NCBI GenBank assembly: GCA_902782245.1
Contig: CACZMI010000021.1
Coordinates: forward strand, 1 to 38,495
Direction: 5' to 3'
From: an uncultured Bacteroidales bacterium
Lineage (GTDB): Bacteria > Bacteroidota > Bacteroidia > Bacteroidales > Bacteroidaceae
DNA length: 38,495 nucleotides
Shown here: piece after piece, positions 2,374 to 22,504 of the stretch
Position numbering within the stretch: the first letter of the stretch is position 1
Layout of the letters: each line of letters starts with the position of its first letter
Notes under the pieces: model-generated
The model's input: only the letters and a program-made list of their open reading frames with translations
What the model was told of the DNA's origin: nothing
Database searches by the model: none
Position numbers and translations under genes: made by a program

Positions 2374-2404
2374 TGACGCAAAGGGGTCGTTTCTCTTTGC
2401 GTCA
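2374..2404 (+). repeat. Family A palindrome, copy A1
   Basis: A 31-bp element with arms TGACGCAAA and CTTTGCGTCA around the conserved spacer GGGGTCGTTTCT. It lies between the 3' end of the TonB receptor and the promoter of the barrel gene. A decayed extra arm (TTTTGCATCA, 2406-2415) follows and contains the receptor's TGA stop at 2413-2415. Confidence 0.9.
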
Positions 2405-2412
2405 CTTTTGCA

Positions 2413-4419
2413 TCAGAGCGGGATATTGAGCTTCAGGGTGATGTTGCGTCCGGGATTGCGGATGCCAACGTACTTGAGGCGGCTTAGGTGATCAACATAC
2501 ACCTTATCTGTCAGATTATCAGCAACAAGAGTGAGTTGCGCCACACATTTGCCCTTACACATTATGTCCGTATGGGCCGATGCCCCCACGAGCAAATATG
2601 CATCGGTTGCAGTCTCGGTTCCCTGCAGAAAATGATCCTGCCTGAAATGCTGGTCGGCACGCACAGACAGATAGCTGTTGTTCAGTATCTTGCCCGAATG
2701 GGTAATCTCCCATTTCACCTCGGCGCCCACCTTGGGCGCAGGGATAAGCGGCATGTCACTTGACTGAAACCTTCCGCGCACGTATGAGAAATCAGCCCCC
2801 AGATGCAGGGCGTGGAACGGATGGCAATCGGCAGCGAATTCTGCCCCATACAGCAGTGCATCGGTTGCATCATAACGATACTCGTCATAGCTCTCAATAA
2901 CAGTGCCTGTCCGCAAGGCGTAAATGTAGTTGTCAATGCGGTTGCAGAACAGGGCGGCGGTCACAGACACGTGTTGCAACTGCAAATCCGCCCCCAGATC
3001 ACCCTGCAGGCTGAATTCGGGATCAAGTCTGTTGTTACCTTTCTCATAACGTACGGTTCCCTCATGGACTCCGTTCGATGCCAGTTCGCTCAGGTTTGGA
3101 GCACGGAATCCGCGAGCCACGTTCGCCCTCAGATTCAGGTTCTCAAAAGGCGAATAAACCAGTCCGATGCTACCGGTCACACCTGTAAAGTCACGCTCAA
3201 AAGCATCGAACTTATCCTCAAGATACAGACTGCTCAGGTGGCGCATATCGGCCCTTACGCCTCCGGCCAGAGTAAAACGCTCCCAGTTCTTTGTAGTTGT
3301 CACGAACAGTCCGGCATCAAACAGACGGTATGCAGGGATGAGCACCTCCTCGCCCAGATTATCACTCACCTGGTACATTCCGCCCACGCCAGCCGCCAAA
3401 CGCCAGCCGTCGGCAAACTCATCGGTGGTGTAGCGCACATCATAATTCATGGTTGAGAGTTTGAAATCAAGCTCAGCCTCATCGGCCTCTTCCTCAAACT
3501 CCTGACGGCGGTTCTGTTGCAGGCCGATAAGCAGTTTCATGCTGCCGGGACCCATCACAAAAGAATTGTCCAGCACCGCCTTGTAGTGATGTACCTGCTG
3601 GAACGGCAGTTCTACGGCATATCCTGTGGGACCTTCCAGTTCTCCGTCCTCGTAACCTTCGGTCATGCCCGGAGTAAGGTGGTAATATCCCAACGTAAGT
3701 CGTGAGAATCCCCAGTCGCGGTTCAGACCCACCTTGCCGCTGGCCGCGCGCTCCCGGAACTGGGTACCCGGCACAAGCCCGTCGGCGGCGTTGCGGAATG
3801 CATGTGCGTACTTATCGGTAAAACGAACGTCCCAGACCGTTCCACCACGGTTGCCGCTCTGGTGTAAGGAATAGGCTGCCAGGCCGCTGTTAGTCTGATA
3901 CTCGCTGCTCACTCCGGCAGAGAGCGTTCCATCCTCAGGAAACGGATTGGGGTTGAGAATGATTACGCCCGCCAGCGCATCGGACCCGTACATGAGGCTG
4001 GCCGGACCTTTCAGGATTTCGGCGCTTCCCACGGTCTCGGCGTCCACCTCTATTCCGTGTTCATCACCCCACTGCTGGCCTTCCTGGCGGATTCCATCGG
4101 CCAAAAGAATGACCCTATTGTATCCCATGCCGCGAATGACAGGCTTGGAGATGCCGCTGCCGGTGGTTACCTGGCTCACTCCGGGTATGGTTGCTATAGC
4201 ATCTATGATATTTGTCGATGCCTTGCTCTTGAGTGTCTGTGCATCGGCCACGCTTATGGCCGACGGGGTCTGGCTCAGACGGCTGGTTCCGGTCAGTCCC
4301 GTAACCGTGATTTCGTCGAGTTTAAGGTGTTTATAGAATACATCGGTACTGTCTTGAGAATATGCGGCAGTATGCGCTGCTATGCACAGCACAGCCGCAA
4401 TGATAATATTTCTTTTCAT
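2413..4419 (-). CDS. TonB-dependent outer-membrane receptor, 668 aa
   Basis: It imports a ligand across the outer membrane using TonB energy. Visible parts: a signal peptide ending near AAYSQD; a TonB-box-like segment DEITVTG at about residues 35-41; a plug domain at about 45-155 with PGVSQVTTGSG, KPVIRGMGYNRV, ADGIRQEGQQWGDEHG and ILKGPASLMYGSDALAGVI; then a long barrel ending in RNPGRNITLKLNIPL. There is no N-terminal carboxypeptidase-like domain and no SusD partner, so this is not a glycan-type SusC. The QQWGDEHG plug motif and the His/Cys-containing neighbour upstream suggest a metal ion or metal complex as substrate (inference). The stop codon lies in a decayed arm of a family A palindrome. 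It is probably co-transcribed with the gene at 4492-4842, 72 bases upstream. Confidence 0.93.
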   Translation of the reverse strand: MKRNIIIAAVLCIAAHTAAYSQDSTDVFYKHLKLDEITVTGLTGTSRLSQTPSAISVADAQTLKSKASTNIIDAIATIPGVSQVTTGSGISKPVIRGMGYNRVILLADGIRQEGQQWGDEHGIEVDAETVGSAEILKGPASLMYGSDALAGVIILNPNPFPEDGTLSAGVSSEYQTNSGLAAYSLHQSGNRGGTVWDVRFTDKYAHAFRNAADGLVPGTQFRERAASGKVGLNRDWGFSRLTLGYYHLTPGMTEGYEDGELEGPTGYAVELPFQQVHHYKAVLDNSFVMGPGSMKLLIGLQQNRRQEFEEEADEAELDFKLSTMNYDVRYTTDEFADGWRLAAGVGGMYQVSDNLGEEVLIPAYRLFDAGLFVTTTKNWERFTLAGGVRADMRHLSSLYLEDKFDAFERDFTGVTGSIGLVYSPFENLNLRANVARGFRAPNLSELASNGVHEGTVRYEKGNNRLDPEFSLQGDLGADLQLQHVSVTAALFCNRIDNYIYALRTGTVIESYDEYRYDATDALLYGAEFAADCHPFHALHLGADFSYVRGRFQSSDMPLIPAPKVGAEVKWEITHSGKILNNSYLSVRADQHFRQDHFLQGTETATDAYLLVGASAHTDIMCKGKCVAQLTLVADNLTDKVYVDHLSRLKYVGIRNPGRNITLKLNIPL

Positions 4420-4491
4420 TGTGGATTATAGTATCTTGATTAATAATGGTATATGAGGACTATATGCGAAAAAGTCCATTATCTCTGATTA

Positions 4492-4842
4492 TCAGCAAGA
4501 TACCACAGGAGGAGCACGGGATTTGGATCGTTCCTGATAACCTGCTTGCAGGCTGACGGGAACGGCAGGGCAGTCAACAACTGAACTTACGGAAATGACA
4601 GACTGAGCCGTGGGAGTAATCTCCAACTGGACAGCAGAAATGAATCGGCATATCCGGCAGTCATCAATTCCGTCATGATTTATAAAGATGTAATGGGAAC
4701 TGTGTCCCTCAATTATCTCACAGACGGAGTTATGCGGAGGAACAGGCTGATGACGGTGAAACGATGCAAGCAGCAGCGCCTGCACAAATACCGCCAGCAG
4801 CACAATGGCTGACAACCTTCCACTCCTGTTCCTGATCATCAT
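4492..4842 (-). CDS. Small membrane-anchored protein with His and Cys motifs, partner of the TonB receptor
   Basis: The frame is open to a TTG at 4854, but the TATATTTG promoter box overlaps that position. The likely start is the ATG at 4842 (or the adjacent one at 4839), giving about 116 residues. One hydrophobic segment (LSAIVLLAVFVQALLLASF) is followed at once by HRHQ, then by a CEIIEGHSSHYIF segment and DDCRICRF, a CxxC pair; the protein ends VVSC. Short proteins of this layout are common just upstream of TonB receptors in Bacteroidetes and resemble the DUF2946 type found beside copper-linked receptors. I have not confirmed that assignment. Metal binding or sensing at the cell envelope is an inference from the His/Cys content. 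Confidence 0.7.
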   Translation of the reverse strand: MMIRNRSGRLSAIVLLAVFVQALLLASFHRHQPVPPHNSVCEIIEGHSSHYIFINHDGIDDCRICRFISAVQLEITPTAQSVISVSSVVDCPAVPVSLQAGYQERSKSRAPPVVSC

Positions 4843-4851
4843 ATGACGCCG

Positions 4852-4859
4852 CAAATATA
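4852..4859 (-). promoter_or_regulatory. -7 promoter box TATATTTG for the small protein / TonB receptor unit
   Basis: A perfect TAnnTTTGC match ending 9 bases before the ATG at 4842, so the 5' leader should be only a few bases long. It rules out the TTG start at 4854, which lies inside the box. Confidence 0.65.
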
Positions 4860-4865
4860 CAAAAA

Positions 4866-4911
4866 CGACGCAAAGGGGTCGTTTCGTTTTGCGTCATTTT
4901 GCGTCGTTTTT
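4866..4911 (+). repeat. Family A palindrome, copy A2, with an extra arm
   Basis: The core element is 4866-4896 (CGACGCAAA, spacer GGGGTCGTTTCG, TTTTGCGTCA). A further arm TTTTGCGTCGTTTTT follows at 4897-4911 and is a perfect inverted match to the left flank at 4861-4874. This copy lies in a divergent promoter region, not at a gene end. Confidence 0.9.
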
Positions 4912-4913
4912 GC

Positions 4914-4921
4914 TAAATTTG
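4914..4921 (+). promoter_or_regulatory. -7 promoter box TAAATTTG for fbp
   Basis: A perfect TAnnTTTGC match 18 bases before the fbp ATG. A TTTG in the right arm of the palindrome (4888-4891) lies 22 bases upstream and is a candidate -33 element. Confidence 0.65.
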
Positions 4922-4939
4922 CAGTAAACATACAGGACT

Positions 4940-6898
4940 ATGGAGAGAAGCGTAGAATATCTGCAGTTGCTGGCCAAGAGTTTCCCAAGCATCGCGGCGG
5001 CATCGACCGAAATCATAAACCTGGAGGCAATACTCAACCTGCCCAAGGGAACCGAGCATTTTGTGACCGATATCCACGGCGAGTACGACGCGTTTGACTA
5101 CGTGCTGCGATCGGCATCGGGCGTAATCCAGCAAAAGATCGACGCGGTATTCGGCGATGAACTCAGTGCCGATGATAAGCGCACCCTGAGCGCCCTGATA
5201 AGCTACCCCGAGGCCAAACTGCGTGCCATCAAGGCCGATAACGACGACCTGGACGAATGGTACAAGGTTACGCTGATGCGCATGATTGCAGTGCTCACCC
5301 GCGTAGCGTCACGCTACACCCGCTCCAAGGTGCGCAAGGCCCTGCCCAAAGACTACGCCTACATCATTGAGGAGCTCATGCACGAGACCCGCGGCACATT
5401 CATCTCCAAGCATAACTACCTGCAGGCCATCATAGACACGATAGTCAGCACCGGCCGCGCAAGTCATTTCATAACCGCCATAGCCGATGTCACCCGCGAC
5501 CTGGTAATTGATCAGCTCCACATAATAGGTGACATATTCGACCGCGGCTCAGGCGCCCATCGAATAATGGACATGCTCTGCAGTTACCGCGATTTTGACA
5601 TCCAGTGGGGCAACCACGACGTAGTGTGGATGGGAGCCGCCACCGGCAGCGCCGCCTGCGTTGCCAACGTGGTGCGCAACAGTCTCAAATATGCCAGTAT
5701 GACCACCCTTGAGGACGGTTACGGCATCAACCTGCTGCCGCTGGCCACATTCGCCATGCAGACTTATGCCGATGACCCCTGCACGCTGTTCATTCCCGTA
5801 AAGACCGATGACACCCCGGTCGAGGATCTGCCGCAGATGGACCTGCTCTCACAGATGCACAAGGCGATCGCCATAATCCAGTTCAAGATTGAGGCCGCAG
5901 TTATTGCCCGCCACCCGGAGTTCCATATGGAGCACCGCAACCTGCTGGACAAGATTGATTTCAAGCGCGGAGTGATAAACATCGGTGGTAAGGAGTACAA
6001 GTTGCTCGACACCAACTTCCCCACTGTTGACCCAAAAGATCCGTACAAACTTACACCAGCCGAACAGAATGTAATAGACCGTCTGGTGCACAGTTTCTGC
6101 AACAGCAAGGCGCTGGCCCGTCACGTGGACTGCCTCTTTGAGCACGGATCGCTCTATCTGGTGCATAACAACAACCTGCTATATCACGGCAGCGTGCCTC
6201 TGAACGAGGACGGAACGCTGGCGTCCATGAACATCCAAGGTGTTGATTATAAGGGTTGTGAGCTGTTCGACACAATAGATAAATACGTACGTACCGCGTA
6301 TTATGCATCGGACGACGACCCCTTGAAACAGTACGGTCAGGACCTGTTCTGGTATCTCTGGTGCGGCCCAGTATCGCCTCCCTTTGACAAAAAACGCATG
6401 GCCACCTTTGAGCGCTATTTCCTGGCCGAGAAGGAGACGCATTATGAGGAGAAAGGCAACTATTACCGCCTCAAGAACCGCCGCGACATCTGCGAGATGA
6501 TACTGCGCGAATTCGGAATCACGGAGCTTGAGCACGCCCACATAATCAACGGCCACATCCCCGTAAAGGAGTCCAGCGGCGAGAGTCCCATCAAGGCCGA
6601 TGGCCGACTACTTGTAATTGACGGCGGATTCTCAAAGGTTTACCACCAGCAGACCGGAATAGCAGGTTACACGCTGATTTTCAACTCACACGGAATGCGC
6701 CTGGTACGGCACCATCCGTTTGAATCCATCCAGCAGTCTATCGCCCAGGGCATGGATGTGATTGCCGCCACGCAGGTGGTAGAGTATTCAGAACAGCAAA
6801 TTCTGGTGCGTGACACCGACAAGGGTCGCCGCCTGATGTCCCGCGTGGAGGACCTGCGCGCCCTGCTCCAAGCCTACCGCACCGGTCTTATAAAATGA
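4940..6898 (+). CDS. fbp: Fructose-1,6-bisphosphatase class III
   Basis: It hydrolyses fructose 1,6-bisphosphate to fructose 6-phosphate, the committed step of gluconeogenesis, in the cytoplasm. At 652 residues it has the normal size of the class III (Firmicutes/Bacteroidetes) enzyme. The calcineurin-like metallophosphatase motifs are all present: TDIHGEYD at residues 43-50, GDIFDRG at 197-203 and GNHD at 224-227, with further metal-ligand His residues in INGHIP near the C-terminus. The N-terminus MERSVEYLQLLAKSFPSI is family-typical and the ATG lies 18 bases after a promoter box. The TGA stop, and the final Lys codon AAA before it, fall inside a family B palindrome. The convergent neighbour pepD ends in the mirror image of the same element. 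Confidence 0.97.
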   Translation: MERSVEYLQLLAKSFPSIAAASTEIINLEAILNLPKGTEHFVTDIHGEYDAFDYVLRSASGVIQQKIDAVFGDELSADDKRTLSALISYPEAKLRAIKADNDDLDEWYKVTLMRMIAVLTRVASRYTRSKVRKALPKDYAYIIEELMHETRGTFISKHNYLQAIIDTIVSTGRASHFITAIADVTRDLVIDQLHIIGDIFDRGSGAHRIMDMLCSYRDFDIQWGNHDVVWMGAATGSAACVANVVRNSLKYASMTTLEDGYGINLLPLATFAMQTYADDPCTLFIPVKTDDTPVEDLPQMDLLSQMHKAIAIIQFKIEAAVIARHPEFHMEHRNLLDKIDFKRGVINIGGKEYKLLDTNFPTVDPKDPYKLTPAEQNVIDRLVHSFCNSKALARHVDCLFEHGSLYLVHNNNLLYHGSVPLNEDGTLASMNIQGVDYKGCELFDTIDKYVRTAYYASDDDPLKQYGQDLFWYLWCGPVSPPFDKKRMATFERYFLAEKETHYEEKGNYYRLKNRRDICEMILREFGITELEHAHIINGHIPVKESSGESPIKADGRLLVIDGGFSKVYHQQTGIAGYTLIFNSHGMRLVRHHPFESIQQSIAQGMDVIAATQVVEYSEQQILVRDTDKGRRLMSRVEDLRALLQAYRTGLIK

Positions 6899-6976
6899 TA
6901 CCATTGGGGTCAGGCCCCTTTGGTATCATTTTGGAAAAATAGTACCAAAGGGGCCTGACCCCAATGGTATCATTTT
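6892..6976. repeat. Family B palindrome, double copy B1 between convergent fbp and pepD
   Basis: Two 41-bp units (6892-6932 and 6936-6976) are arranged as an inverted pair separated by 3 bases. Each unit is itself a hairpin: AATGATACCA pairs with TGGTATCATT around a GGGGTCAGGCCCC core. The whole can also fold as one long stem. The stop codons of fbp (6896-6898) and pepD (6970-6972) occupy the equivalent TGA in the outer arm of each unit. The T-rich flanks would suit a bidirectional terminator. Confidence 0.93.
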
Positions 6977-8415
6977 ATTGTGCGCAGGATTGCAAGGAGG
7001 TGGTCAAACACCATGGGAACGGTGGCCAGTTCAAGGCGCTCGGACGGTGAGTGTACGCCGCGCAGTGTCGGGCCGATGGAAATCATATCCAGATCGGGGT
7101 ACGATGTCAGGAACAGACCGCACTCCAGACCGGCGTGGATAGCATTGACCTTGGGGTCCTTCCCGAACAGTTCCTTATACGTACGGACCGATATATCCAG
7201 CAGCTCCGACTTGGGATTGGGAGCCCAGCCCGGATAGCCGTCATTGCTTGTAACCTTGGCGCCAGCCAGACGGAAACAAGCTGCCAGAGTAGCCTGCACC
7301 GCATATTTGCCCGATTCAACACTGCTTCTCTGGCTTGCCAGCATAGTGACCTTGCCGTTCTCAGTGCGTATGCGCGCCAGATTTGACGATGTCTCAACCA
7401 GCCCCGGCACATCCATGCTCATGGCATAAACGCCGTTGAACACGGCAAACACTGACCTTATTATATTGCGAGCCACGCCCTGCTCTATGCACTCCCCAAC
7501 AGCATCGGTCGATTCCATAAAGAACTTGGCCTCACGCTCGGTAACATGATATTCATCCTGTACTTCCGATGCAAACACGTTAAAGTCAACGCGTATCTTC
7601 TCGCGGTCGGCAAACGGAACGGCAATCACAGCCTGGGCGTCACGCGGAATTGCGTTATGCAAATTTCCGCCGCTGATGGAACACAGCCTCAGGTCATATT
7701 TGTCAAGAGCGCCGTAAAGGAACCGTGCCAGTATCTTGTTGGCATTGGCATAACCCTTGTCGATATCATCGCCCGAGTGGCCGCCGTGCAACTTATCGAC
7801 CCCTACTCTAAGGAAGAAATATCCCGCAGGAACAGCCTCGGTCTTATATTCAAACTCAACGCTGGTATTGATACCACCCGCACAACCGATGAATATCTCG
7901 CCCTCATCCTCCGAGTCCAGGTTGATGAGCATCTTGCCGTTCATCATGCCCGGCTTGAGGTTCTCGGCACCGGTCAGACCGGTCTCCTCGGATATAGTAA
8001 AGAGGCACTCCACCGGTCCGTGCTCAATCTCCTTGCTGTCCAGAACAGCCAGAGCCATGGCAATACCCATACCGTCATCGGCCCCAAGAGTAGTGCCGCG
8101 TGCCTTGAGCCAGCCGTCCTCCACGTAGGTCTCAATGGGCTGGGTCATGAAATCGTGCTTCAGGGTGGCGTCCTTCTCGCACACCATATCCTGATGGGCC
8201 TGCAGAATCACCGTCTGACGGCCCTCAAAACCGGGAGTTGCAGGCTTGCATATCAGCACGTTACCAACCTCATCCTTCTTTGCGGCAAGCCCGCGTGCGG
8301 CTGCGAACGACATAAGGTACTCACCCATCTTCTCCTCACGACCCGACGGACGCGGAATCCTGCAGATTTCCAGAAATATATCCATCACTCTCTTGGACCA
8401 ATCTATCTTTTCCAT
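6970..8415 (-). CDS. pepD: Cytosolic nonspecific dipeptidase (beta-alanyl/aminoacyl-histidine dipeptidase, M20C)
   Basis: A zinc dipeptidase of the PepD type that releases amino acids from dipeptides, in the cytoplasm. The family motifs are visible: LQAHQDMVCEKD with His74 and Asp76, GADDGMGIA with the bridging Asp at 113/114, SEETGLTGAENL with the catalytic Glu at 143/144, and later HAGLECG, which supplies the last metal ligands. At 481 residues it is the normal family length (about 480-490), and it has no signal peptide. A promoter box TACTTTTG (8466-8473) lies about 50 bases upstream, with GTTG 20 bases further up as a weak -33. The stop codon lies in the family B double palindrome shared with fbp. 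Confidence 0.96.
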   Translation of the reverse strand: MEKIDWSKRVMDIFLEICRIPRPSGREEKMGEYLMSFAAARGLAAKKDEVGNVLICKPATPGFEGRQTVILQAHQDMVCEKDATLKHDFMTQPIETYVEDGWLKARGTTLGADDGMGIAMALAVLDSKEIEHGPVECLFTISEETGLTGAENLKPGMMNGKMLINLDSEDEGEIFIGCAGGINTSVEFEYKTEAVPAGYFFLRVGVDKLHGGHSGDDIDKGYANANKILARFLYGALDKYDLRLCSISGGNLHNAIPRDAQAVIAVPFADREKIRVDFNVFASEVQDEYHVTEREAKFFMESTDAVGECIEQGVARNIIRSVFAVFNGVYAMSMDVPGLVETSSNLARIRTENGKVTMLASQRSSVESGKYAVQATLAACFRLAGAKVTSNDGYPGWAPNPKSELLDISVRTYKELFGKDPKVNAIHAGLECGLFLTSYPDLDMISIGPTLRGVHSPSERLELATVPMVFDHLLAILRTIK

Positions 8416-8465
8416 ATATATTTTAATAAATTATAATAATGTCTTAACAACTCAAAAATGCTTCC

Positions 8466-8473
8466 CAAAAGTA
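8466..8473 (-). promoter_or_regulatory. -7 promoter box TACTTTTG for pepD
   Basis: Matches TAnnTTTG, with GTTG about 20 bases upstream on the same strand as a weak -33. The predicted leader is about 45 bases. Confidence 0.5.
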
Positions 8474-8506
8474 CATTATTCTTGGCATTAATTCAACTAA
8501 AATCCA

Positions 8507-8514
8507 TATCTTCG
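8507..8514 (+). promoter_or_regulatory. -7 promoter box TATCTTCG for the small membrane protein and ompH-like gene
   Basis: One mismatch to TAnnTTTG, with TTGG 21 bases upstream (8482-8485). It ends only 8 bases before the ATG at 8523, so the leader is very short. Confidence 0.5.
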
Positions 8515-8522
8515 CGCCGCAT

Positions 8523-8738: not shown

Positions 8739-8748
8739 ATTTAGCTAT

Positions 8749-9330: not shown

Positions 9331-9345
9331 TAAAAATAGCCAAAG

Positions 9346-10776: not shown

Positions 10777-10817
10777 AAAATAGTACAAAAGGGGACAGAC
10801 CCCTTTTGTACCATTTT
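10777..10817 (+). repeat. Family B palindrome, copy B2
   Basis: A 41-bp hairpin: an AAAATAGTACAAAA arm, GGGGACAGACCCC core and TTTTGTACCATTTT arm. The CE15 stop codon is just upstream inside TGATGCAAAA (10771-10780), which differs by one base from the family A arm TGACGCAAAA. The hairpin plus T-run could act as a terminator. Confidence 0.88.
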
Positions 10818-10884
10818 TCAATCCAGATTTAACATTTGTGTGTTTTCTGCGTCTTAATAGTAGAAACACTTAAAAACTACGACG

Positions 10885-13795: not shown

Positions 13796-16360
13796 TCAAT
13801 AGAACCACTTGACGTAGCAGAAATCCTGACGGTGAGGCAGGTCTGCGTTCTTGGGATACATGCGGTATGCAACCTTGAACGATCCGGCAAAGTCATTCTT
13901 TACGCTGCCGCGGAAAGTATAGAGGTTACCGTCACGCTTTACAAGCTCCAGCGGAATAACCTTCATCAGCTTGTCATTGCCGTCGGCATCGGACCCTACT
14001 ACTACCATCTCAACGCCTATTGCATCGTCCAGACCCTTCTCATCTATGACATACTCAATATCATAGCTCTTTCCGGTCTCAAACTGGCCCTGATTGACAG
14101 TCTCGGTCTTGTTGGCGCTTACCACGCTGATGGTGTCCCAGCGCTGTGCCACAGTCTCCTTCCAGGCTGCAATCTCCTTGGCCTTGGCAAAGTCGTTGGC
14201 CTGCAGAGAGTGTGAGCGCTCGGCCATCTTGCAGTAGAACCTGCTGAAATAGTCATCAAGCTGACGCTTCATAGTATAGTGCGGAGCAATCTGTGCGATT
14301 GAGTTCTTCATTGTCGATACCCATCCCTCGGATATGCCCTCGGCGTTCTTGTTGTAGTACAGCGGCAGGATCTCATTCTCCAGGATGCTGTAAATTGTAG
14401 CGGCATCCAACTGGTCCTGATAAGCCTGGTTGTTGTATGTGCGCTTATCGGTCAGAGCCCAACCGGCACCCTCGCGATAACCCTCGTACCACCATCCGTC
14501 AAGCACTGAGAAGTTTACCACACCGTTCATCAGAGCCTTCTCGCCCGATGTGCCCGATGCCTCCAGAGGACGTGTGGGAGTGTTGAGCCAGATATCAACG
14601 CCCGATACCAGACGGCGTGCCAGATGCATGTCGTAGTTCTCCAGGAATATAATCTTGCCCAGGAACTCCGGACGACGGCTGATGTCTATGATCTGCTTGA
14701 TAAGTCCCTGACCTGCACCATCGTGCGGGTGAGCCTTACCGGTAAAGAAGAACTGTACCGGATAGTCGGGGTTGTTCACGATCTTGGCCAGACGGTCCAG
14801 ATCGGTAAAGAGCAGATGTGCGCGCTTGTATGTTGCAAACCGGCGGCCAAAACCGATGGTAAGTGCGTTGGGGTTGATCTTCTCCATCAGTGACATGATG
14901 CGTGAAGGATCGCCCTGGTTCTTGAGCCAGCTGTCCTTGAACTGCTGACGGATATACTCAATGAGCTGCTTCTTAAGGTCGTTGTGCAGATCCCATACAA
15001 CCTTATCGGGCACCTTATAGATATCCTCCCACAACTTCTCGTTTGACTGGTCAGAGAGGAACTTCTTGTCAAAATATTTCGCATAGAGAGCCTGCCACTC
15101 CTTTGATGCCCATGTAGGCATGTGGACGCCGTTGGTAACATAACCCACGTGACTCTCCTCGGGGAAATAACCCTTCCAGATTCCGGCAAACATCTTCTTT
15201 GAAACCTCGCCGTGAAGCCAGCTTACGCCGTTTACCTCCTGGCAGGTGTTGCATGCAAATGTTGACATGCAGAAACGCTCGCTTGCATCACCGGGATTGG
15301 TTCGGCCCATATCCATGAGTTCACCCCAGCTGATACCCAGCTGCTGTGCATATCCGCCCATGTACTTGCCGAACAGGCCCTCGTCAAAGTAGTCGTGACC
15401 TGCGGGAACCGGAGTATGAACGGTATACAGTGACGATGCACGAACCACCTCCATGGCCTGGTTGAATGTAAGACCCTGCTTTACGTACTGAGTCAGACGG
15501 TACAGGTTGCACAGGGCGGCGTGGCCCTCGTTGCAGTGGTAGATATCCTTCTTTATGCCCAGAGCCTCAAGGGTAAGCATACCGCCTATGCCCAGCAGGA
15601 TCTCCTGCTTGAGGCGGTTTTCCCAGTCACCGCCGTAAAGCTGTGACGTGATGGGGCGGTCATAATCGCTGTTCATGTCTATATCGGTATCCATCAGGTA
15701 CAGAGGCACACGACCCACGTTAACCCTCCAGATAGCGGCATAAACGGTATAGTTGATATAAGGTACAGCCACAGTCAGAGGCTGACCGTTCTTGTCATAG
15801 ACGCGCTCCAGAGGCAGGGTGTTGAAATCCTGCGGCTCATAGTTGGCAATCTGCTGACCGTCCATGGACAGAGACTGTGTAAAGTAACCGTGACGGTACA
15901 GGAAGCCCACACCGCACATATCCACGTTGCTGTCGCTGGCCTCCTTCATGTAGTCACCTGCCAGCACGCCCAGACCGCCTGAATAGATCTTGAGCACATG
16001 TGTCAGACCGTACTCCATGCAGAAGTATGCAACTGACGGACGCTTGGCATCGGGCTTTACGTCTATATATTTGCGGAATTTGTCATAGATGGCATTCATC
16101 TTGTCCAGGAAAAGCTGGTCCTTGGACAGTTCCTCCAGCTTGTCATAGCCCAAGCTCTGGAGCATCATGATAGGATTGTGGCGCACACGTGTCCACATCT
16201 CGGGGTCAATCTCCTTGAACAGGGCCTTGGCGTCCTCGTTCCATACCCACCAGATGTTGTGAGCCAACTCGTCAAGTTTCTGCAAAGCCTCCGGCACGCT
16301 TGACTTTACATAGAAATCGCGCCATGAGGGCTGGTTTGAATTGCTCGCTTTAATCTTCAT
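13796..16360 (-). CDS. glgP: Alpha-glucan (glycogen) phosphorylase, GT35 with DUF3417 N-terminus
   Basis: It releases glucose 1-phosphate from glycogen using PLP. The N-terminal DUF3417 region is clear ([32 protein letters not shown]). The core carries the glucan-binding segment [41 protein letters not shown], and [14 protein letters not shown], whose Lys is the expected PLP-binding residue. About 100 C-terminal residues (from about 750) form an extra beta-rich region ending DFCYVKWFY, as in other members of this subfamily. The open frame reaches a TTG at 16378, but the ATG at 16360 ([13 protein letters not shown]) is the better start. It lies 48 bases downstream of glycogen synthase with a family A palindrome between, so synthesis and breakdown genes share a transcript. 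Confidence 0.95.
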
Positions 16361-16380
16361 ATTGTGTTTTTTTTCCAAAA

Positions 16381-16411
16381 TGACGCAAAGGGGTCGTTTC
16401 GTTTTGCGTCA
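16381..16411 (+). repeat. Family A palindrome, copy A3, between glycogen synthase and phosphorylase
   Basis: A perfect copy: TGACGCAAA, spacer GGGGTCGTTTCG, TTTTGCGTCA. The last three bases (16409-16411) are the complement of the glycogen synthase TGA stop. It is inside a probable two-gene transcript. Confidence 0.93.
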
Positions 16412-18082
16412 GTTATTATCGTAAATCTTATTCCACGTTTTCTCTACGGCAAAGTTGTAAGCCTGCAGGTAGTACTTGATAAAGTGCTTCCAGAGTGCTT
16501 TCTGCGCAATCTTACCCGCTTTCTTGCGTATCTCCTCACGCTCGGCGGCACTCTTGCTCACCCATTTCTCGACCTGACGGCTTATATCGTCCGATGCCTC
16601 ATCCCAGTTGCCGTCAGTCCGATGCACAACCTTGACTCCATCCTCCAGTTGCGCCTCATGTCCCATCAGAGTGTTGACCCACATGCCGAATCCGGCCAGG
16701 TCCGATGTCACCGTAGGCACCTTGAATGCGGCACTCTCAAGCGGAGTGTAACCCCACGGCTCATAATATGACGGGAACACAGCCAGATCCTGGCCGATAA
16801 GCAGGTCGTAGTATGACTTGTTGAAAATACCGTCGTTTCCGTCCAGATAACACGGAACGAACAGCACCTTCACATTATCCTCGGGGGCGTTGCGGAATCC
16901 CATGTTCTGCAGCGTGGTGATAACACGGTCCTCGCCCATATTGTGCAGCCAATGTGTGGTAAGCGGCATCTGCAGCGGTGTCTTGGCTGTATCAGTACCG
17001 TTGATACGGTCCTGCAGGTCGCGACGGGGCTCCATCACCCATGCCGGCACGTTTACCAGCGCCAGGATATGGGCATCGGCCACCTTTATGTTATAACGCA
17101 GGCGACGCATCGACTCCAGGAACATATCAATGCCCTTGTTGCGGAACTCGTATCGTCCGCCGGTCGCCACAATCACGGTATCATCGCCCCACTCCGTTCC
17201 GAACAGTCTGTTGGCCACGTTGAGGATGCATTTGCGGGCCTCGCTACGGATGCTTTCAAACTTATTGGCAGCAGGCAGGAAACCGTCCTCAAAGCCGTTC
17301 ATGGTAACAACGTCAGGGGTCTTGCCAAGCAGCTGGGTGCATTCGCGGGCAGTAATGTCACTCACCGTGGTAAAGCAGTCCACCTGGTGCGCGGTCTGCT
17401 TCTCTATGGAGTGCTTGGACTCCATGTTGAGTTCCTGCGCCATCTGGTCACCGTTGTAACCGTCAAAGAACTCGTACAGCGCCTTGCCGTTGCCGCAAAT
17501 GGAACGGCCGATGGACGTGGCGTGGGTTGTAAATACCGTCGATATCTGCGGAATAAAGTACTTGAGGAACAGCGCACCCAGACCGGTCATCCACTCGTGT
17601 GCGTGGTAAACCACAGTGTCATTGGCGCTTATGTTGAAGTTATAGAAACTCTTTACGGCCATTGCAGCGGCATATGAGAACATCGATGCCTCGTCATAAT
17701 CGCCGTAAGCGTGCATTGAATCCACCTTGAAAAGTTCCCAGGCACGGCTGTAGATGGAGTTCTTAAGCGGAAACATTGTCATAAAATCCACCAGGAACAC
17801 TATGGGGCGTCCGGGAATATCCCAATAACCTACCCTGACCTTCAGGCCGTCGGTGTCGCGTGCATAATCCTTCCAGATGGAATACAGGGATTTATCTTCA
17901 ACAAACAGGGGATTGTGTTTGCCCTCCCATACATCGGGGCCCACATAAATGAGTGTTGCGCCGCTCTCCTCCTTGAGTGTCTTAGCCTGGGTTGAAAGCA
18001 CAGTGTAAATGCCTCCAATCTTATTGCAGACCTCCCAGCTTACGGAGAAAATATAATTTGGCTTCCTTTTGGTACTACTCAT
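16409..18082 (-). CDS. Glycogen synthase, GT3 (eukaryote-like) family
   Basis: It extends alpha-1,4-glucan chains. The N-terminus SVSWEVCNKIGGIYTVLSTQAKTL is the hallmark of the GT3 (GYS-type) synthases of animals and fungi, which Bacteroidetes also use in place of the bacterial GT5 GlgA. Other family segments: YHAHEWMTGLGALFLK, TTHATSIGRSICGNGK, VATGGRYEFRNKGIDMFLE, and the C-terminal nucleotide-binding motif FPSYYEPWGYTPLESAAFKVPTVTSDLAGFG with the catalytic Glu pair. At 557 residues it is shorter than animal enzymes and lacks their phosphorylated tail. The promoter box TAACTTTG (18130-18137) lies about 47 bases upstream. It is first in a unit with glgP, and its stop codon is the edge of a family A palindrome. 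Confidence 0.94.
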   Translation of the reverse strand: MSSTKRKPNYIFSVSWEVCNKIGGIYTVLSTQAKTLKEESGATLIYVGPDVWEGKHNPLFVEDKSLYSIWKDYARDTDGLKVRVGYWDIPGRPIVFLVDFMTMFPLKNSIYSRAWELFKVDSMHAYGDYDEASMFSYAAAMAVKSFYNFNISANDTVVYHAHEWMTGLGALFLKYFIPQISTVFTTHATSIGRSICGNGKALYEFFDGYNGDQMAQELNMESKHSIEKQTAHQVDCFTTVSDITARECTQLLGKTPDVVTMNGFEDGFLPAANKFESIRSEARKCILNVANRLFGTEWGDDTVIVATGGRYEFRNKGIDMFLESMRRLRYNIKVADAHILALVNVPAWVMEPRRDLQDRINGTDTAKTPLQMPLTTHWLHNMGEDRVITTLQNMGFRNAPEDNVKVLFVPCYLDGNDGIFNKSYYDLLIGQDLAVFPSYYEPWGYTPLESAAFKVPTVTSDLAGFGMWVNTLMGHEAQLEDGVKVVHRTDGNWDEASDDISRQVEKWVSKSAAEREEIRKKAGKIAQKALWKHFIKYYLQAYNFAVEKTWNKIYDNN

Positions 18083-18129
18083 ATCTTAATAATCAAACAA
18101 ATAATCCTTTTTATCTGAATTTCAGGCCG

Positions 18130-18137
18130 CAAAGTTA
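18130..18137 (-). promoter_or_regulatory. -7 promoter box TAACTTTG for the glycogen synthase-phosphorylase unit
   Basis: A perfect TAnnTTTGC match, about 47 bases before the ATG; no obvious -33 TTTG. Confidence 0.55.
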
Positions 18138-18179
18138 CAAATTTCCCCCGCTCATCGTCACATCATTAACACTATTTTC

Positions 18180-18203
18180 GATGCAAACGACCCCTTTGCG
18201 TCA
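18180..18203 (-). repeat. Family A palindrome, copy A4 (opposite orientation, partly decayed)
   Basis: On the minus strand it reads TGACGCAAAGGGGTCGTTTG then CATC; the second arm has a C-to-T change and a shortened spacer. It starts exactly with the mnmA TGA stop (18201-18203). This is the only copy with GGGGTC on the minus strand. Confidence 0.82.
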
Positions 18204-19583
18204 CTTTATCACGCCTGATCCAAGCATCTCGTCGTCGGGAGCATACCACACCGCAAACTGGCCGGAGGTAATACCGCGCTGAGGCTCATCAAATAGGATA
18301 TAAAGGGCCGATTCACGCTTTATGAGCCACGCGTTCTGCAGAGGCTGACGGTAACGTATGCGCACGCGGTAACGACGCACCTCGCCCTCCTGCATCTCAA
18401 GATCCGGACGTATCCAATGTATATCGTCACGGCCGATGCACAGACAGCTGCGCGAAAGCCCCGGATGAGTATGCCCGCAACCTGCATAGACCGTATTGCT
18501 CTCAATATCAGTGGCAATCACAAACAGCGAATCATCGTGCCCGCCCACATTCAGACCGTGACGCTGGCCGATGGTAAAGAACTGCGCGCCATCATGCGTG
18601 CCGATGATCTTGCCCCAAGGATTAGCCTTGTAGCGAGTCTTTTTGACATGCTTGCGCCCCGAGCGGTAAGTCTCGGTTATGAATTTAATGCCGTCATAAC
18701 GGTACGGGGTTGCCAGACGCTCCAGGACATCATCCGTAAGCGCAGCAATTTTATCCGGGTCGTAATTATTTGAGTTTAAGGCGTTTGTACACTTATCTTC
18801 ACTGATGTATCCCGTTACCAGGTTTGCCGCGCGACCATCGGCTGTAAGGCTGTCCAGTGTCTCTTTCTGGAACTTATAATGCGGATTATTTGTATAGAAA
18901 TCGGGATAAACCTCCACTATATTGCCCTCCACGCTCTTTAGTTTCTGCTTGAGAAACTCCGGCAGATCCACCTTGCCCACAAAACATATCCCCTGCGAGT
19001 CCTTCTTTGTGGCCGATGGCAGACCGGCCTTAGCGGCTATCTGACGAACCTCCTTCTTGAGCAGATGTCCAATGGGGAACATTGCCCTTGAGAGTTGCTC
19101 CTGATTAAGCTGACACAGGAAATAACTCTGGTCCTTGCCCGGATCCGTCCCCTCAAATATGCGGTACGTGGTGCTGCCATCATCGGCCTTGAACTCCTCC
19201 TTGCGGCAGTAGTGCCCGGTGGCCACCATATCGGCCCCCAATTTCAAAGCAGCGTCCAGGAACGCATCGAACTTTATCTCGCGGTTGCACAGCACATCGG
19301 GATTTGGGGTCCTGCCCTGCTCGTACTCAGAGAACATATAGTCCACCACGCGGCGGCGGTACTCATCGCTCAGGTCCACAAAATGGAACGGTATGCCAAT
19401 CTTCTTGGCCACCATCTCGGCCACCATGCGGTCCTCCTCCCACTCGCAGTCTCCGTGCAGCGTGCCCTCGGTGTCATGCCAGTTCTGCATGAACATGGCA
19501 AAAACGTCACAGCCCTGCTGCTTGAGCAACAGGGCCGCTACGCTGGAGTCAACGCCTCCCGATAACCCTACGCACACTTTCAT
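18201..19583 (-). CDS. mnmA: tRNA-specific 2-thiouridylase MnmA with a large internal insertion
   Basis: It thiolates U34 of tRNAs for Lys, Glu and Gln. The PP-loop SGGVDSS is at residues 8-14, the catalytic Cys99 in NPDVLCNREIKF, ATGHYCR follows, then KDQSYFLCQL and the second Cys200 in QGICFVGK. The family is about 360 residues long; this protein has 460. The extra length is a block at about residues 228-324, between GNIVEVYPDF and GKIIGTHDGAQFFTIGQRHGL, where ordinary MnmA has only a few residues. The ATG is fixed by the PP-loop next to it, and a TACCTTTG box ends 4 bases upstream, so the mRNA may be leaderless. The stop codon begins a family A palindrome. Confidence 0.95.
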   Translation of the reverse strand: MKVCVGLSGGVDSSVAALLLKQQGCDVFAMFMQNWHDTEGTLHGDCEWEEDRMVAEMVAKKIGIPFHFVDLSDEYRRRVVDYMFSEYEQGRTPNPDVLCNREIKFDAFLDAALKLGADMVATGHYCRKEEFKADDGSTTYRIFEGTDPGKDQSYFLCQLNQEQLSRAMFPIGHLLKKEVRQIAAKAGLPSATKKDSQGICFVGKVDLPEFLKQKLKSVEGNIVEVYPDFYTNNPHYKFQKETLDSLTADGRAANLVTGYISEDKCTNALNSNNYDPDKIAALTDDVLERLATPYRYDGIKFITETYRSGRKHVKKTRYKANPWGKIIGTHDGAQFFTIGQRHGLNVGGHDDSLFVIATDIESNTVYAGCGHTHPGLSRSCLCIGRDDIHWIRPDLEMQEGEVRRYRVRIRYRQPLQNAWLIKRESALYILFDEPQRGITSGQFAVWYAPDDEMLGSGVIK

Positions 19584-19587
19584 GGCG

Positions 19588-19595
19588 CAAAGGTA
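19588..19595 (-). promoter_or_regulatory. -7 promoter box TACCTTTG immediately ahead of mnmA
   Basis: A perfect TAnnTTTGC match in the 15-base gap between the upstream lipoprotein stop and the mnmA ATG. Transcription would start at or next to the ATG. No -33 TTTG is seen. Confidence 0.5.
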
Positions 19596-19598
19596 CGA

Positions 19599-21485
19599 TT
19601 ATATTTTTATAGGAGTCGGAGCATCTTCTTTATTTTGGTAATAGTACACTTGGTCCATAGCATACAAATTACCTGCTTCAATCTCTACTATGAAGGTTGT
19701 GCCATCGCTAAGTGTAACCGAAGCCTTTCCTGTAATGTAATCTCCCTCTTTCAGTTCAAATCTGCCAGTGGAAATAATCTTATACTCAGGATCGCGGCCG
19801 CCCATAGGATCGTACATGCTCTTGGTTACTATCAAAGAGTGGTCTGCAAACAGGAATACAGACTCAAATACCAGAGTATCGCCCTGTTCGCTTGCGTAAC
19901 CATTGTAGTACCATGCGTCAATGGTCTTATCTGCATACCGGGCCGGAAGGTAAGGCTGGAAATCAGCCTGGAATCCACCCTGACCGCCATTGTCATCACC
20001 ATCATCATCACCATCGTCATCACCGTCATCATCACCATCATCATCACCGTCATCATCACCGCCAATGACACCGCCATTGTCACCACCCGGGTTGTTTCCA
20101 TCAGTGGGATCAAGGGCATCAGGAATATCATTAAGATCACGTTTCTTAAACACCTTGTCCTGGTTATATTCCCACACAAGACACCCGTCAGTGATAGTCA
20201 TATTGTATAATACTCCACCATCAAGGAAAATATTTGCCGCACCGTTACTGTAGTTAACAGCACTTACAAAAGCGTATGAACCCATGTACCAAATATAACG
20301 CTCTTCCTGCATGTCTTTCTCTGAGTGTACTTTGCGTTCAGTGCGTATAAACATGTTGTCATTAAACAGGAATATAGCCTCAACCCTTGTTTCCATTGGG
20401 TTAGAATCAGTAAATGAGTACCAGGCCACAACATTCTTTTTATCATATCCCGTCGGGAAGAATGCCGGCACGTCACTGTCACCCTGGTCGCCGCCCTGGC
20501 CACCCTGGTTGCCGTTATTGGTGGGATCGCTTGGCCCAGGTACCTTTGTATTATCCTGCTTGATGTAAATGGTCACACTACCATCTTCAGTATCTATGGC
20601 CTTCAACTGACCGTTCTCAATTTCCAGGATGACGGTTTTGTCCTTATCATACGTAATGGCTACCTTACCTGTATTAAAGTTACCCTCTACTATACGATAA
20701 GAACCTTCTGCTCCTACTGTACGTTCAAAACTCTGACCTGTAGGACCTGATACCGCCACGTTGCTGGTACCAACAAAAGAACCGTCAACAAAGAAATAGA
20801 TTGCAGCAACATATTTCATCTCAAAACCATCACCTGATTCAGATCCGGAATATGCAAACCATGCCTCTATGCTCTTGCCGGCGTATGCCTTGGGGAAGAA
20901 AGCATTGTCGCCGTTAACATCGCCGTTGCCATCCTGGTTATTATTGCCGCCTTGGTTATTATTGCCACCTTGGTTAATATTGCCACTTGCGGGATCGGAT
21001 GCCTTGGGAACCTTGGCGTTATCCTGCATGATAAAGACCTCCTCTCCCTGATCTGTAGTCAGGTGTCCGTCTTCAATCACAACATTCATCACACCTTGTG
21101 CTTCACCGTTATCTGCCATGACAATAGCCCTGGCCTTACCGTTTTTATAGTCGCCTTCGGTCAACTCATAAGTACCTGTAGCCTCTATATCACGTTCGTA
21201 TCGGCCATCGGTATGAACCTTGTTCTTGGTAACCACAAAAGTATTGTCCTTAAAGAGGTAAACTGCCTCTGTCTTGGTCTTGTCCTTGTCCTTATCGGTC
21301 CATTTATACCAGGCTGCGACTTCCTTACCGGCGAATGCCTTAGGGAAAAACGCCTCTTCTCCCGATAAAGTCTCCTCTTCCTTATCTTCCAGAAGATCCT
21401 CAAGTTCATCACATGAAGTGTAGGTAAAGCAAAGCATCAGAACCGATGCCAGCATCCATAATAGTCCAGATTTCTTCATAATCAT
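19599..21485 (-). CDS. Large lipoprotein with four copies of an unrecognised AWY domain, 628 aa
   Basis: The signal sequence ends at the lipobox YTSC (Cys25). Four related domains of about 115 residues follow at about 46-162, 196-318, 341-459 and 511-624. Each begins F/L-x-P-x-x-Y/F-x-x-K-x-x-x-AW-Y/F, continues with an acidic loop, a strand EAV/IxLFxDxxxxxT, a GTY/GSY-x-x-x-EGDY/F-x-x-GKA segment, a hydrophobic strand (VxIxxGxL) and usually a K/QD-x-x-x-xP end. Linkers are low-complexity: NQGG repeats (163-195), GGQGGDQGD (about 325-337), and an Asp/Gly tract (476-499) coded by a 12-bp repeat. I recognise no enzyme motif. A surface display or binding role for the tandem beta-rich domains is an inference. 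The neighbour at 21564-22430 has two more copies. The ATG at 21479 is an equally good start. Confidence 0.85.
   Translation of the reverse strand: MIMKKSGLLWMLASVLMLCFTYTSCDELEDLLEDKEEETLSGEEAFFPKAFAGKEVAAWYKWTDKDKDKTKTEAVYLFKDNTFVVTKNKVHTDGRYERDIEATGTYELTEGDYKNGKARAIVMADNGEAQGVMNVVIEDGHLTTDQGEEVFIMQDNAKVPKASDPASGNINQGGNNNQGGNNNQDGNGDVNGDNAFFPKAYAGKSIEAWFAYSGSESGDGFEMKYVAAIYFFVDGSFVGTSNVAVSGPTGQSFERTVGAEGSYRIVEGNFNTGKVAITYDKDKTVILEIENGQLKAIDTEDGSVTIYIKQDNTKVPGPSDPTNNGNQGGQGGDQGDSDVPAFFPTGYDKKNVVAWYSFTDSNPMETRVEAIFLFNDNMFIRTERKVHSEKDMQEERYIWYMGSYAFVSAVNYSNGAANIFLDGGVLYNMTITDGCLVWEYNQDKVFKKRDLNDIPDALDPTDGNNPGGDNGGVIGGDDDGDDDGDDDGDDDGDDDGDDNGGQGGFQADFQPYLPARYADKTIDAWYYNGYASEQGDTLVFESVFLFADHSLIVTKSMYDPMGGRDPEYKIISTGRFELKEGDYITGKASVTLSDGTTFIVEIEAGNLYAMDQVYYYQNKEDAPTPIKI
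19989..20060 (-). repeat. 12-bp tandem repeat encoding an Asp-Asp-Asp-Gly linker
   Basis: About six 12-bp units, close to CATCATCACCAT on the plus strand, code for a run of DDDG units joining domains 3 and 4 of the lipoprotein. The repeat length is a multiple of three, so slippage would change linker length without shifting frame. Confidence 0.85.
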
Positions 21486-21510
21486 TAATTAATAAGACAA
21501 TATTTGACTG

Positions 21511-21518
21511 TAAACATA
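21511..21518 (-). promoter_or_regulatory. -7 promoter box TATGTTTA for the four-domain lipoprotein
   Basis: One mismatch to TAnnTTTG, 25 bases before the ATG. The TTTG in the family A palindrome (complement of 21541-21544) lies exactly 22 bases upstream. Confidence 0.5.
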
Positions 21519-21534
21519 GCAATTTATTTGATAA

Positions 21535-21566
21535 TGAACGCAAAGGGGTCGTTTCTTTTTGCGTCA
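21535..21566 (+). repeat. Family A palindrome, copy A5
   Basis: Reads TGAACGCAAA, spacer GGGGTCGTTTCT, TTTTGCGTCA. The right arm ends with the complement of the TGA stop (21564-21566) of the upstream lipoprotein gene, and the left arm supplies TTTG 22 bases from the next gene's -7 box. Confidence 0.92.
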
Positions 21567-22430
21567 ATTTGGTCTGATCTCATCAGGAAGGTCTGCTATA
21601 TCCTGCTTGATGAACGTCTTGTCCGAGATAGGCATCTGCCCGTCATTGACAGTGACCTCATAAGATTCAATCACACTGAATTCAAGGTCCAGCTTACCGG
21701 TACTGAAATCGCCCTCAACAAGTTTATATCGGCCGATAGTCAGCAGATCATATGCCGGCTCACGGCCACTTGCGTAGAACACGCTCCTGGTGTAAAGCAT
21801 CAGGCTGTCAGCATCCAGGAATATGGCCTCTATCTTTGTTTTCTGTTCATCCTGTACAACATACTGGTACCACGCAACGTAGTTGATCTCAATATTTAAT
21901 GCCGGCAGATAAGCCTGAATCTTGCCGTTAAACACGTCAGTTATCGGGGTCGGAGCCGGAAGCGCAGAAATATCCTGCCTTACGTATGTCACAGCCATCA
22001 ATGTCAACTCTCCGTCCTGTATCCTGGCCCTTAAAGAGACGCCTCCAGGCAACAGGAACTGCAAGGCACCGTTGTCAAAATCACCTTCCAGGACCTGATA
22101 TGTGCCCTCATGCATCACCTCGCGTGACGGATCGCGTCCGTCCTCCTGGCTGTAAGTCTTGCTCTTGGTCACGATAACAGTGCTGTCAGAAAAAAGGAAA
22201 ACCGCCTCAATCTTTTTCTTGTAATCGGTCTCCGAATAAACTGAGTACCAGGCTGATACTGTCTTATCGGCACAATAAGAAGGCAGGAACGCCTCCACCT
22301 CCCATACGGGATTGTTGCCGTTGTCATCTGGTTGAGTAACATCGGCCTTCTCACACGATACGCAAGCCATGCCCAGCATCAATGCTGCCGCAAAAAATGA
22401 CATTAAACCGGAATTTCTCATAAGTCCCAT
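21564..22430 (-). CDS. Lipoprotein with two AWY domains, 288 aa
   Basis: The lipobox ACVSC (Cys26) is followed by a short Asp/Asn-rich linker and two copies of the domain found four times in the downstream gene: about residues 47-160 (FLPSYCADKTVSAWY, KIEAVFLFSDSTVIVTKS, GTYQVLEGDFDNGA, YVRQDISALP) and 173-284 (YLPALNIEINYVAWY, KIEAIFLDADSL, GRYKLVEGDFSTGKL, FIKQDIADLP). The shared design and adjacency point to gene duplication. An ATG at 22421 (MRNSGLMSFF) is an alternative start. A TATGTTTG promoter box lies upstream. The stop codon is the edge of family A copy A5, which lies 79 bases before the next gene. Function unknown. Confidence 0.85.
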   Translation of the reverse strand: MGLMRNSGLMSFFAAALMLGMACVSCEKADVTQPDDNGNNPVWEVEAFLPSYCADKTVSAWYSVYSETDYKKKIEAVFLFSDSTVIVTKSKTYSQEDGRDPSREVMHEGTYQVLEGDFDNGALQFLLPGGVSLRARIQDGELTLMAVTYVRQDISALPAPTPITDVFNGKIQAYLPALNIEINYVAWYQYVVQDEQKTKIEAIFLDADSLMLYTRSVFYASGREPAYDLLTIGRYKLVEGDFSTGKLDLEFSVIESYEVTVNDGQMPISDKTFIKQDIADLPDEIRPN

Positions 22431-22446
22431 TTATAAGTTTCAACTG

Positions 22447-22454
22447 CAAACATA
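22447..22454 (-). promoter_or_regulatory. -7 promoter box TATGTTTG for the two-domain lipoprotein
   Basis: A perfect TAnnTTTGC match 16 bases before the ATG. The family A TTTG (complement of 22479-22482) lies 24 bases upstream. A small CCAATAAATTGG palindrome sits between the two. Confidence 0.6.
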
Positions 22455-22473
22455 CCAATAAATTGGCACATTT

Positions 22474-22504
22474 TGACGCAAAGGGGTCGTTTAATAATGC
22501 GTCA
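22474..22504 (+). repeat. Family A palindrome, copy A6, in a divergent promoter region
   Basis: TGACGCAAA and spacer GGGGTCGTTT are intact. The right arm is AATAATGCGTCA, so the inner part of the stem is degraded. No stop codon is involved. Confidence 0.88.

Follow-up and report, generated by a model that had tools for sequence, protein, structure and literature searches.

What kind of element is the short palindrome that recurs in this DNA from an uncultured Bacteroidales bacterium? A sequence-only reading of the window, by which we mean the whole 38,495-nucleotide stretch of DNA analysed, had described six copies of a 31-bp palindrome (family A) and preferred a small mobile element, with an RNA hairpin as the alternative. 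That preference is supported by the repetition of the element across its genome and genus, by its position around a RAYT gene in sister genomes, and by orthologous sites with and without it. We consider it highly probable that the copies are short non-autonomous palindromic DNA elements (REP/TIR-like, now independent units), moved in trans by RAYT-A, a HUH/Y1 tyrosine transposase. Family A has probably spread through this genus of gut bacteria via a single-strand transposase.

Copies of family A in the window

All six window sites contain an exact copy of the 17-mer ACGCAAAGGGGTCGTTT, in agreement with the six cores claimed earlier. The 18-mer GACGCAAAGGGGTCGTTT gave six window matches at up to three mismatches (exact in five cases, with a single mismatch in the sixth), compared with a mean of 0.02 over 100 shuffles, and a 28-mer omitting the three variable bases gave no match in the window. 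The asymmetric spacer GGGGTCGTTT is conserved as described; full copies have it followed by three variable bases. The description of the copies as 31-bp palindromes held only in part. All six have the core, but the perfect 9+9 palindrome is confined to A1 and A3, since A4 has no right arm and the arms of A2, A5 and A6 are imperfect (Table 1). The copy that had been placed at 18180 does contain the core, but reads down the minus strand from 18203. The extra tandem arms at A1 and A2 were recovered, the former in degenerate form. None of the six copies lies inside an ORF of at least 110 aa by a greedy ORF call, consistent with a position between genes or at gene ends.

Table 1. Family A copies in the window, with their structure and adjoining features.
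Copy	Position	Strand	Structure	Further features
A1, full element	2374..2404	+	TGACGCAAA-GGGGTCGTTT-CTC-TTTGCGTCA	Degenerate extra arm TTTTGCATCA after the element, reaching about 2414
A2	4866..4896	+	CGACGCAAA-GGGGTCGTTT-CGT-TTTGCGTCA, extra arm TTTTGCGTCG immediately 3'	Left arm begins with C (one outer mismatch); alternative short hairpin 4863-4884, AAACGAC paired with GTCGTTT
A3, perfect 31-bp element	16381..16411	+		Last three positions double as the TGA stop codon of the minus-strand glycogen synthase gene 16409-18082
A4, half element	18185..18203	-	Left arm plus spacer, no right arm	Its TGA serves as stop codon for the tRNA methyltransferase (tRNA_Me_trans) gene 18201-19583
A5	21535..21566	+	Left arm with additional A (TGAACGCAAA)	Ends in the stop codon of the minus-strand gene 21564-22430
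A6	22474..22504	+	Right arm AATGCGTCA, two mismatches	

Spread in the genus and a flanking transposase

Family A is repeated well beyond the window. Its own genome contains 36 exact cores, 22 of which lie on C2 (100-154k), C21, C25, C40 and C41, and 21 of the 37 genomes from the genus carry the core. Across the bacterial family, the exact core occurred in one of 30 genera sampled. Among 48 copies examined for gene context, 24 lie between co-directional genes, some only a few bases from both, 9 between convergent and 8 between divergent genes, and 11 supply the stop codon of a neighbouring gene. Neighbouring copies are arranged head-to-head (28) or in tandem (33) and never in the opposite (reverse) inverted arrangement, so that inverted pairs have strictly one orientation. 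Single copies outnumber multi-copy clusters (216 of 268 clusters); family A thus does not consist mostly of inverted doublets, as REPINs do. The consensus element has neither GTAG nor GTGG on either strand and so lacks the 5' GT[AG]G of a canonical REP.

The dispersed palindrome is linked to a transposase. The gene of RAYT-A has exact cores on each side in four sister genomes (G006, G019, G031 and G035). Three of them have inverted pairs at either end of the gene; the downstream copy in G006 is single. The RAYT/REPtron arrangement, in which an enzyme's own palindromes both flank its gene and are dispersed, is therefore present in all four genomes where RAYT-A was found. These genomes hold 12, 31, 52 and 61 exact cores. 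Their copy number was higher than in the rest (Mann-Whitney p = 0.0023 for 37 genomes, p = 0.018 among the 21 core-carrying genomes), by a test that ignores the relatedness and uneven completeness of the genomes. No RAYT-A was found in the assembly of the window's own genome (85.7% complete), where the one Y1_Tnp match belongs to clade B, not A. G034 has 56 copies yet no Y1_Tnp match.

RAYT-A is a protein of 265 aa with the motifs NHVH and YIHQNP. A profile search matched Y1_Tnp (9.2e-11) and, weakly, a C-terminal HTH_23 (6.9e-5, below the curated cut-off). The catalytic motifs are intact, with H69, H71 and Y128 invariant across 24 aligned sequences, and the top match in a structure search was 4er8, the structure of a RAYT in complex with a REP hairpin. 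RAYT-A accordingly has the HUH motif, the single catalytic tyrosine and the TnpA-REP fold that define a RAYT. A sequence search of the PDB gave nothing significant (4er8 at E 0.45), the NCBIfam RAYT model scored 54 bits against a cut-off of 80, and PADLOC returned no match. Rows such as those for Thg1 and a parvovirus nuclease (Foldseek, VIA) were set aside as sharing only the common general fold.

The four RAYT-A sequences form one clade (SH-aLRT 100). A second clade of 10 transposases (SH-aLRT 100) bears another palindrome, family B, where the palindrome labels on the clades are our reading of the flanking sequences. A palindrome with a GGG[GA][AT]C core was present in at least one 190-bp flank for 29 of the 36 related transposases of the genus and in both flanks for 16, compared with 5% and 0.5% of 400 random stretches from the same genus.

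Variable sites and alternative explanations

Both filled and empty alleles were seen at orthologous sites, as expected of a mobile element. The A4 site carries an inverted pair in G035 and no element in G025, G031 and G032; G025 lacks the element at the A6 site and has it at the A5 site. Sister species hold other palindromes or none at the same site, and one site holds several families. In most of these comparisons the two species share 80-95% identity in the flanks, or the sites bear deletion-like scars and do not resemble virgin empty sites, and no consistent target rule or duplication could be derived from filled and empty sites. Automated counting of other palindromes where family A is missing gave 16 of 84, a figure not used as a rate because site A3 is repeated many times in it and at least one case is false.

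Gene conversion or homologous recombination between copies, with no transposase, could instead have multiplied the family, the RAYT gene being flanked as just another locus. The several families at one site would fit this, as would the scars and the units gained or lost at the arms. So would the 2.5-kb block bounded by A1 and A2, whose neighbours vary between species, and the reverse orientation of the A1 spacer in G006 and G028. We nevertheless regard this route as unlikely: one would not expect recombination alone to create new sites lacking flanking homology, the transposase clades are flanked by their own palindromes, and the inverted pairs occur in a single orientation only.

Less probable again are intrinsic terminators or mRNA-stabilising hairpins maintained for an RNA function. 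RNA folding gave a stable hairpin, and copies do stand at gene ends. In a terminator scan A1 passed at full length and A2 only as a shorter hairpin; A3, A4, A5 and A6 failed. Half of the 48 copies lie between co-directional genes and the exact core is restricted to one sampled genus, which argue against a general RNA function. Since, in addition, no Rfam family reached its gathering score at the copies, the RNA hairpin offered earlier is not required to explain the family, although single copies may have acquired an RNA role later. Least probable of all is an operator, whose half-sites would be the arms and whose regulon the adjoining genes: the dyad symmetry, the eight copies between divergent genes and the Bacteroidetes-type promoter elements beside some copies (our reading) would suit it, but not the nine copies between convergent genes, the eleven that supply stop codons, the conserved asymmetric spacer, the other or missing palindromes in sister species, or the copies that bracket RAYT-A.

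Proposed mechanism and relation to known systems

For transposition by RAYT-A, the explanation we prefer, we infer spacer recognition, cleavage and movement in trans as follows. The arms would fold into a hairpin, and RAYT-A, its own gene bracketed by the same palindrome as the dispersed copies, would cut, excise and insert the element as single-stranded hairpin DNA. DNA folding of the element sequences as entered gave z = -6.3 for a single element and -11.5 for a pair. Covariation of the arms was at chance: the outer arm base was paired in 199 of 249 (190 expected) and the base beyond it in 131 of 249 (135 expected), so base pairing rests on symmetry and folding. The enzyme would read the asymmetric spacer as the strand-specific part of the element, and the spacer would for that reason be kept, though an operator would not need it. 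Most likely the window's lineage lost, or never kept, RAYT-A, and its copies are therefore probably immobile leftovers now. Elements of this kind would explain why, in gut Bacteroidales genomes, some repeats provide genes with stop codons and mark the borders of rearranged blocks.

More tentatively, the genus may represent a radiation of transposase-palindrome pairs with a common GGGG[AT]C core, in which differing arms would give each enzyme a private address. Family A might then form a two-state hairpin setting strand and cut, in which the GTCGTTT of the spacer would either pair with the left foot AAAYGAC or leave the left foot to the right arm. If so, the HTH-bearing RAYT lineage, for which REP-like repeats were reported to be missing (PMC6006769), would gain a REP class of its own.

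The earlier statement that no described element with this sequence is known from Bacteroidales stands for the letters, but not for the class, which is known from the TIRs of TIRYT transposases (PMC3733652). A literature query by the repeat letters yielded only unrelated papers among the matches listed, and a query on palindromic elements with Prevotella found no paper. The REPINs linked to RAYTs (Bertels and Rainey 2011, PMC3116915) resemble family A in their inverted doublets forming a long hairpin, their tie to a RAYT, and singles that may be remnants. Family A differs in that each single unit is itself palindromic, in the predominance of singles and in the absence of GTAG. CGTC-tagged REPs (PMC3733652) likewise have GACG/CGTC ends on a short intergenic palindrome, whereas in family A the CGTC lies inside the paired stem and the palindrome flanks a transposase gene, which CGTC REPs were reported to lack.

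The nearest published kind is the TIRYT/TIRtron (Di Nocera et al. 2013, PMC3733652), in which a Y1 transposase gene lies between inverted repeats that also occur in the genome as singles, dimers and clusters. Its motif is GGGG-based as well: the published GGGGWSAS is matched fully by family B (GGGGTCAG) and by motifs from other genera (GGGGACAG), whereas family A (GGGGTCGT) fits GGGGWS and misses the last two letters. The examples in the text available are from Acidobacteria, Pseudomonas and Stenotrophomonas, with Bacteroidetes named once there, for CGTC repeats.

RAYT-A is a candidate member of TnpAY1 subclass 2.1 (Quentin et al. 2018, PMC6006769), as judged by published motifs, length and domains. 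That subclass is characterised by NHVH, Y[IV]HLNP, a median of 238 aa and a C-terminal HTH_23, HTH_28 or Bac_DnaA_C. RAYT-A shares NHVH, the long protein and the C-terminal helix-turn-helix, but has YIHQNP instead of Y[IV]HLNP; YIH[QN]NP is given for subclass 2.6, mostly from Bacteroidetes and 179 aa long. According to its authors, subclass 2.1 probably corresponds to TIRYT, with further analyses needed. They report no REP-like sequences adjoining genes of subclass 2.1, whereas RAYT-A has its palindromes. If RAYT-A does belong there, the genus provides clear enzyme-repeat pairs, together with sister species that differ in having the enzyme and sites that differ in having the repeat. What such enzymes recognise, and whether they can still mobilise DNA, would thereby become directly testable.

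Sequence, abundance and placement of family A

The sequence-only reading had claimed six copies of a 31-bp palindrome in the window, which we call family A. Its 17-mer core, ACGCAAAGGGGTCGTTT, indeed occurred exactly at six places, but only copies A1 and A3 were perfect palindromes; the arms were imperfect in A2, A5 and A6, and A4 was a half copy on the minus strand. Shuffles of the window gave a mean of 0.02 matches for the family-A 18-mer. The 31-bp consensus consists of the arm TGACGCAAA, the spacer GGGGTCGTTT, three variable bases and the arm TTTGCGTCA. Among 289 distinct contexts in the DNA examined, GACGCAAA preceded the spacer in 247, and frequent triplets 3' of it were CGT, AAC, CCC, CTC and AAG. 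Folding demonstrated the hairpin potential of the element. A2 could alternatively form a short hairpin (4863-4884) in which GTCGTTT of the spacer is bound to AAACGAC of the left foot; we hypothesise that the 18-bp distance between tandem units corresponds to this short hairpin. In some copies the loop contained extra GC-rich sequence (TCGCTTCGCTTGG..GGGCCGAGCG), about 44 bp long or longer, and the orthologous copy in locus L156 was free of it.

The genome searches proposed in that reading showed that the core extends well beyond the window. The window's own genome (2.51 Mb, 98 contigs, completeness 85.7%) held 36 exact copies, and 63 places at up to three mismatches versus 5 for the reversed pattern. 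The spread was patchy, with 22 of the 36 exact copies on C2 (100-154 kb), C21, C25, C40 and C41 of its contigs. Overall, 21 of the 37 genomes of the genus had the core (429 exact copies in total), and the reversed pattern had no match in these 37. In the family-wide search of 399 genomes, the core was found in 19, all within one of 30 genera, and the reversed pattern matched once, in a different genus. A scan of named genomes returned at least 106 stretches with the core; the 80 listed were all titled Bacteroidales, Bacteroidaceae, Prevotellaceae or Prevotella, several of them from reticulum or omasum.

With ORFs of at least 110 aa taken from greedy calls rather than gene-caller output, 41 of the 48 own-genome copies (at most one mismatch) lay outside ORFs; of control positions drawn at random from these stretches, 83% fell inside. 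The remaining seven copies were 12-209 bases from an ORF end. The neighbours of the 41 extragenic copies were co-directional in 24 cases, convergent in 9 and divergent in 8. In 11 of the 48, including A3, A4 and A5, the neighbouring gene takes its stop codon from the TGA of the element.

Pairing and variation at orthologous sites

Pairing was one-sided: neighbouring copies were head-to-head in 28 cases, of the opposite kind in none and in tandem in 33. Thirteen of the 28 head-to-head pairs had a CGTTTT type facing an AACAAT or AAGAAT type. Comparison of orthologous single copies showed the same orientation in 92 of 93 cases; many of these cases are not independent.

The suggested comparison of orthologous sites revealed both filled and lacking alleles, between species. 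Depending on the species, palindromes of several different families occupy site A3, which separates the phosphorylase gene from that for glycogen synthase; judged by eye in 20 genomes including the window, the site had A or a close variant in 5, another GGG-core palindrome in 7 and none in 8. Site A4 holds one copy in the window and an inverted pair in G035; G025, G031 and G032 have none there. G025 lacks A6, but shares A5 with the window. One locus, whose flanks are 95-99% identical, is occupied by a pair in G006 and by a single copy in G035; the window's genome (G000) has only TGACGCA there. The locus of RAYT-A, an HUH/Y1 transposase gene flanked by family A in four genomes, was assembled in G000 without the roughly 1-kb cassette seen in G006 and G035 (flanks 94-98% identical), leaving TGACGCAAAGGGGTC; this could reflect cassette loss or decay of a single copy. 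In contrast to the conserved orientation of single copies, the spacer of A1 is flipped relative to its counterpart in G006 and G028, and the sequence on its left side differs as well; the 2.5-kb block delimited by A1 and A2 has other neighbours in other species. Together, the flip and the block point to recombination at the repeats.

Transposase-palindrome pairs and family B

The genus holds an unusual wealth of cognate transposase-palindrome pairs. From 38 distinct transposase frames we used the 36 with at least 100 bases upstream, including the distant relative L258. A GGG[GA][AT]C-core palindrome stood in at least one 190-bp flank of 29 and in both flanks of 16, compared with 5% and 0.5% of random stretches; the same detector found none beside the other 7. 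In a tree of 35 transposases, the four RAYT-A rows grouped with support 100, as did ten RAYT-B rows, which adjoin family-B palindromes (GGGG and CCCC around five bases; labels by eye). The sole Y1_Tnp match of the own genome, on contig 57, is RAYT-B, 47% identical to RAYT-A. In other genera of the family, 13 loci yielded an open frame in 7; by a looser motif used without a chance control, a GGGG-based 8-mer lay no more than 200 bases from all 7, and 5 of them had one on both sides. By eye, the spacer GGGGTCGTTTC differs at two positions from GGGGACGGTTC of several other families.

Family B is also a window palindrome, with core GGGGTCWGWCCCC. On contig 57, the reading frame of a mannose-1-phosphate guanylyltransferase-like ORF (named by eye) runs through family-B palindromes, encoding the peptide VPMGPDPNGII three times, the first ahead of the likely start. 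In the stretches examined, 4 of 48 family-B cores lay 90 nt or more within ORFs of at least 150 aa; the script behind this count assigned the guanylyltransferase-like ORF to the other strand. The window's GH95-type gene, with a tRNA-Ala and adjacent inverted repeat at its end, is 97-98% identical in G004, G014, G027, G033 and G036, whereas the rest of the shared DNA is mostly about 74-91% identical, which on sequence identity indicates recent interspecies transfer.

Coordinates of family B, its transposase and other features
Feature	Location	Positions
Family B	window	6892-6979, 10777-10820, 23128-23171, 29493-29536
RAYT-B, family-B-flanked transposase	L077 (contig 57, own genome)	4719-5588
Mannose-1-phosphate guanylyltransferase-like ORF	L077 (G000:C57)	6677-7774
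GH95-type gene	window	23196-25775
GC-rich loop insert	L071	about 17880-17947
GC-rich loop insert	L063	2681 and 12960
GC-rich loop insert	L172	1639

Putative mobilisation and known systems

The best explanation so far is that family A comprises non-autonomous elements that RAYT-A would move in trans. Counted against it are the score of RAYT-A below the cut-off of the NCBIfam RAYT model, the 56 family-A copies of G034, a genome yet without a Y1_Tnp match, the predominance of single copies (216 of 268 clusters) and the family-A arms, in which covariation was looked for and not found.

The open-licence papers listed for these subjects included none that deals with the family-A repeat, and none that deals with Bacteroidales REP-RAYT pairs. 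REPINs are defined in PMC3116915. According to PMC6006769, subclass 2.1 is probably TIRYT, and its authors did not find REP-like sequences for it. TIRYT genes, as described in PMC3733652, are flanked by inverted repeats, some with a common GGGGWSAS and some repeated in the genome; family A matches GGGGWSAS only in part, which also counts against the trans-mobilisation explanation. The same paper describes the E. coli RAYT as recognising single-stranded REP DNA and cutting it at GTAG. By analogy with that enzyme, RAYT-A would bind the single-stranded family-A hairpin, may read its asymmetric spacer and would move the element in trans.
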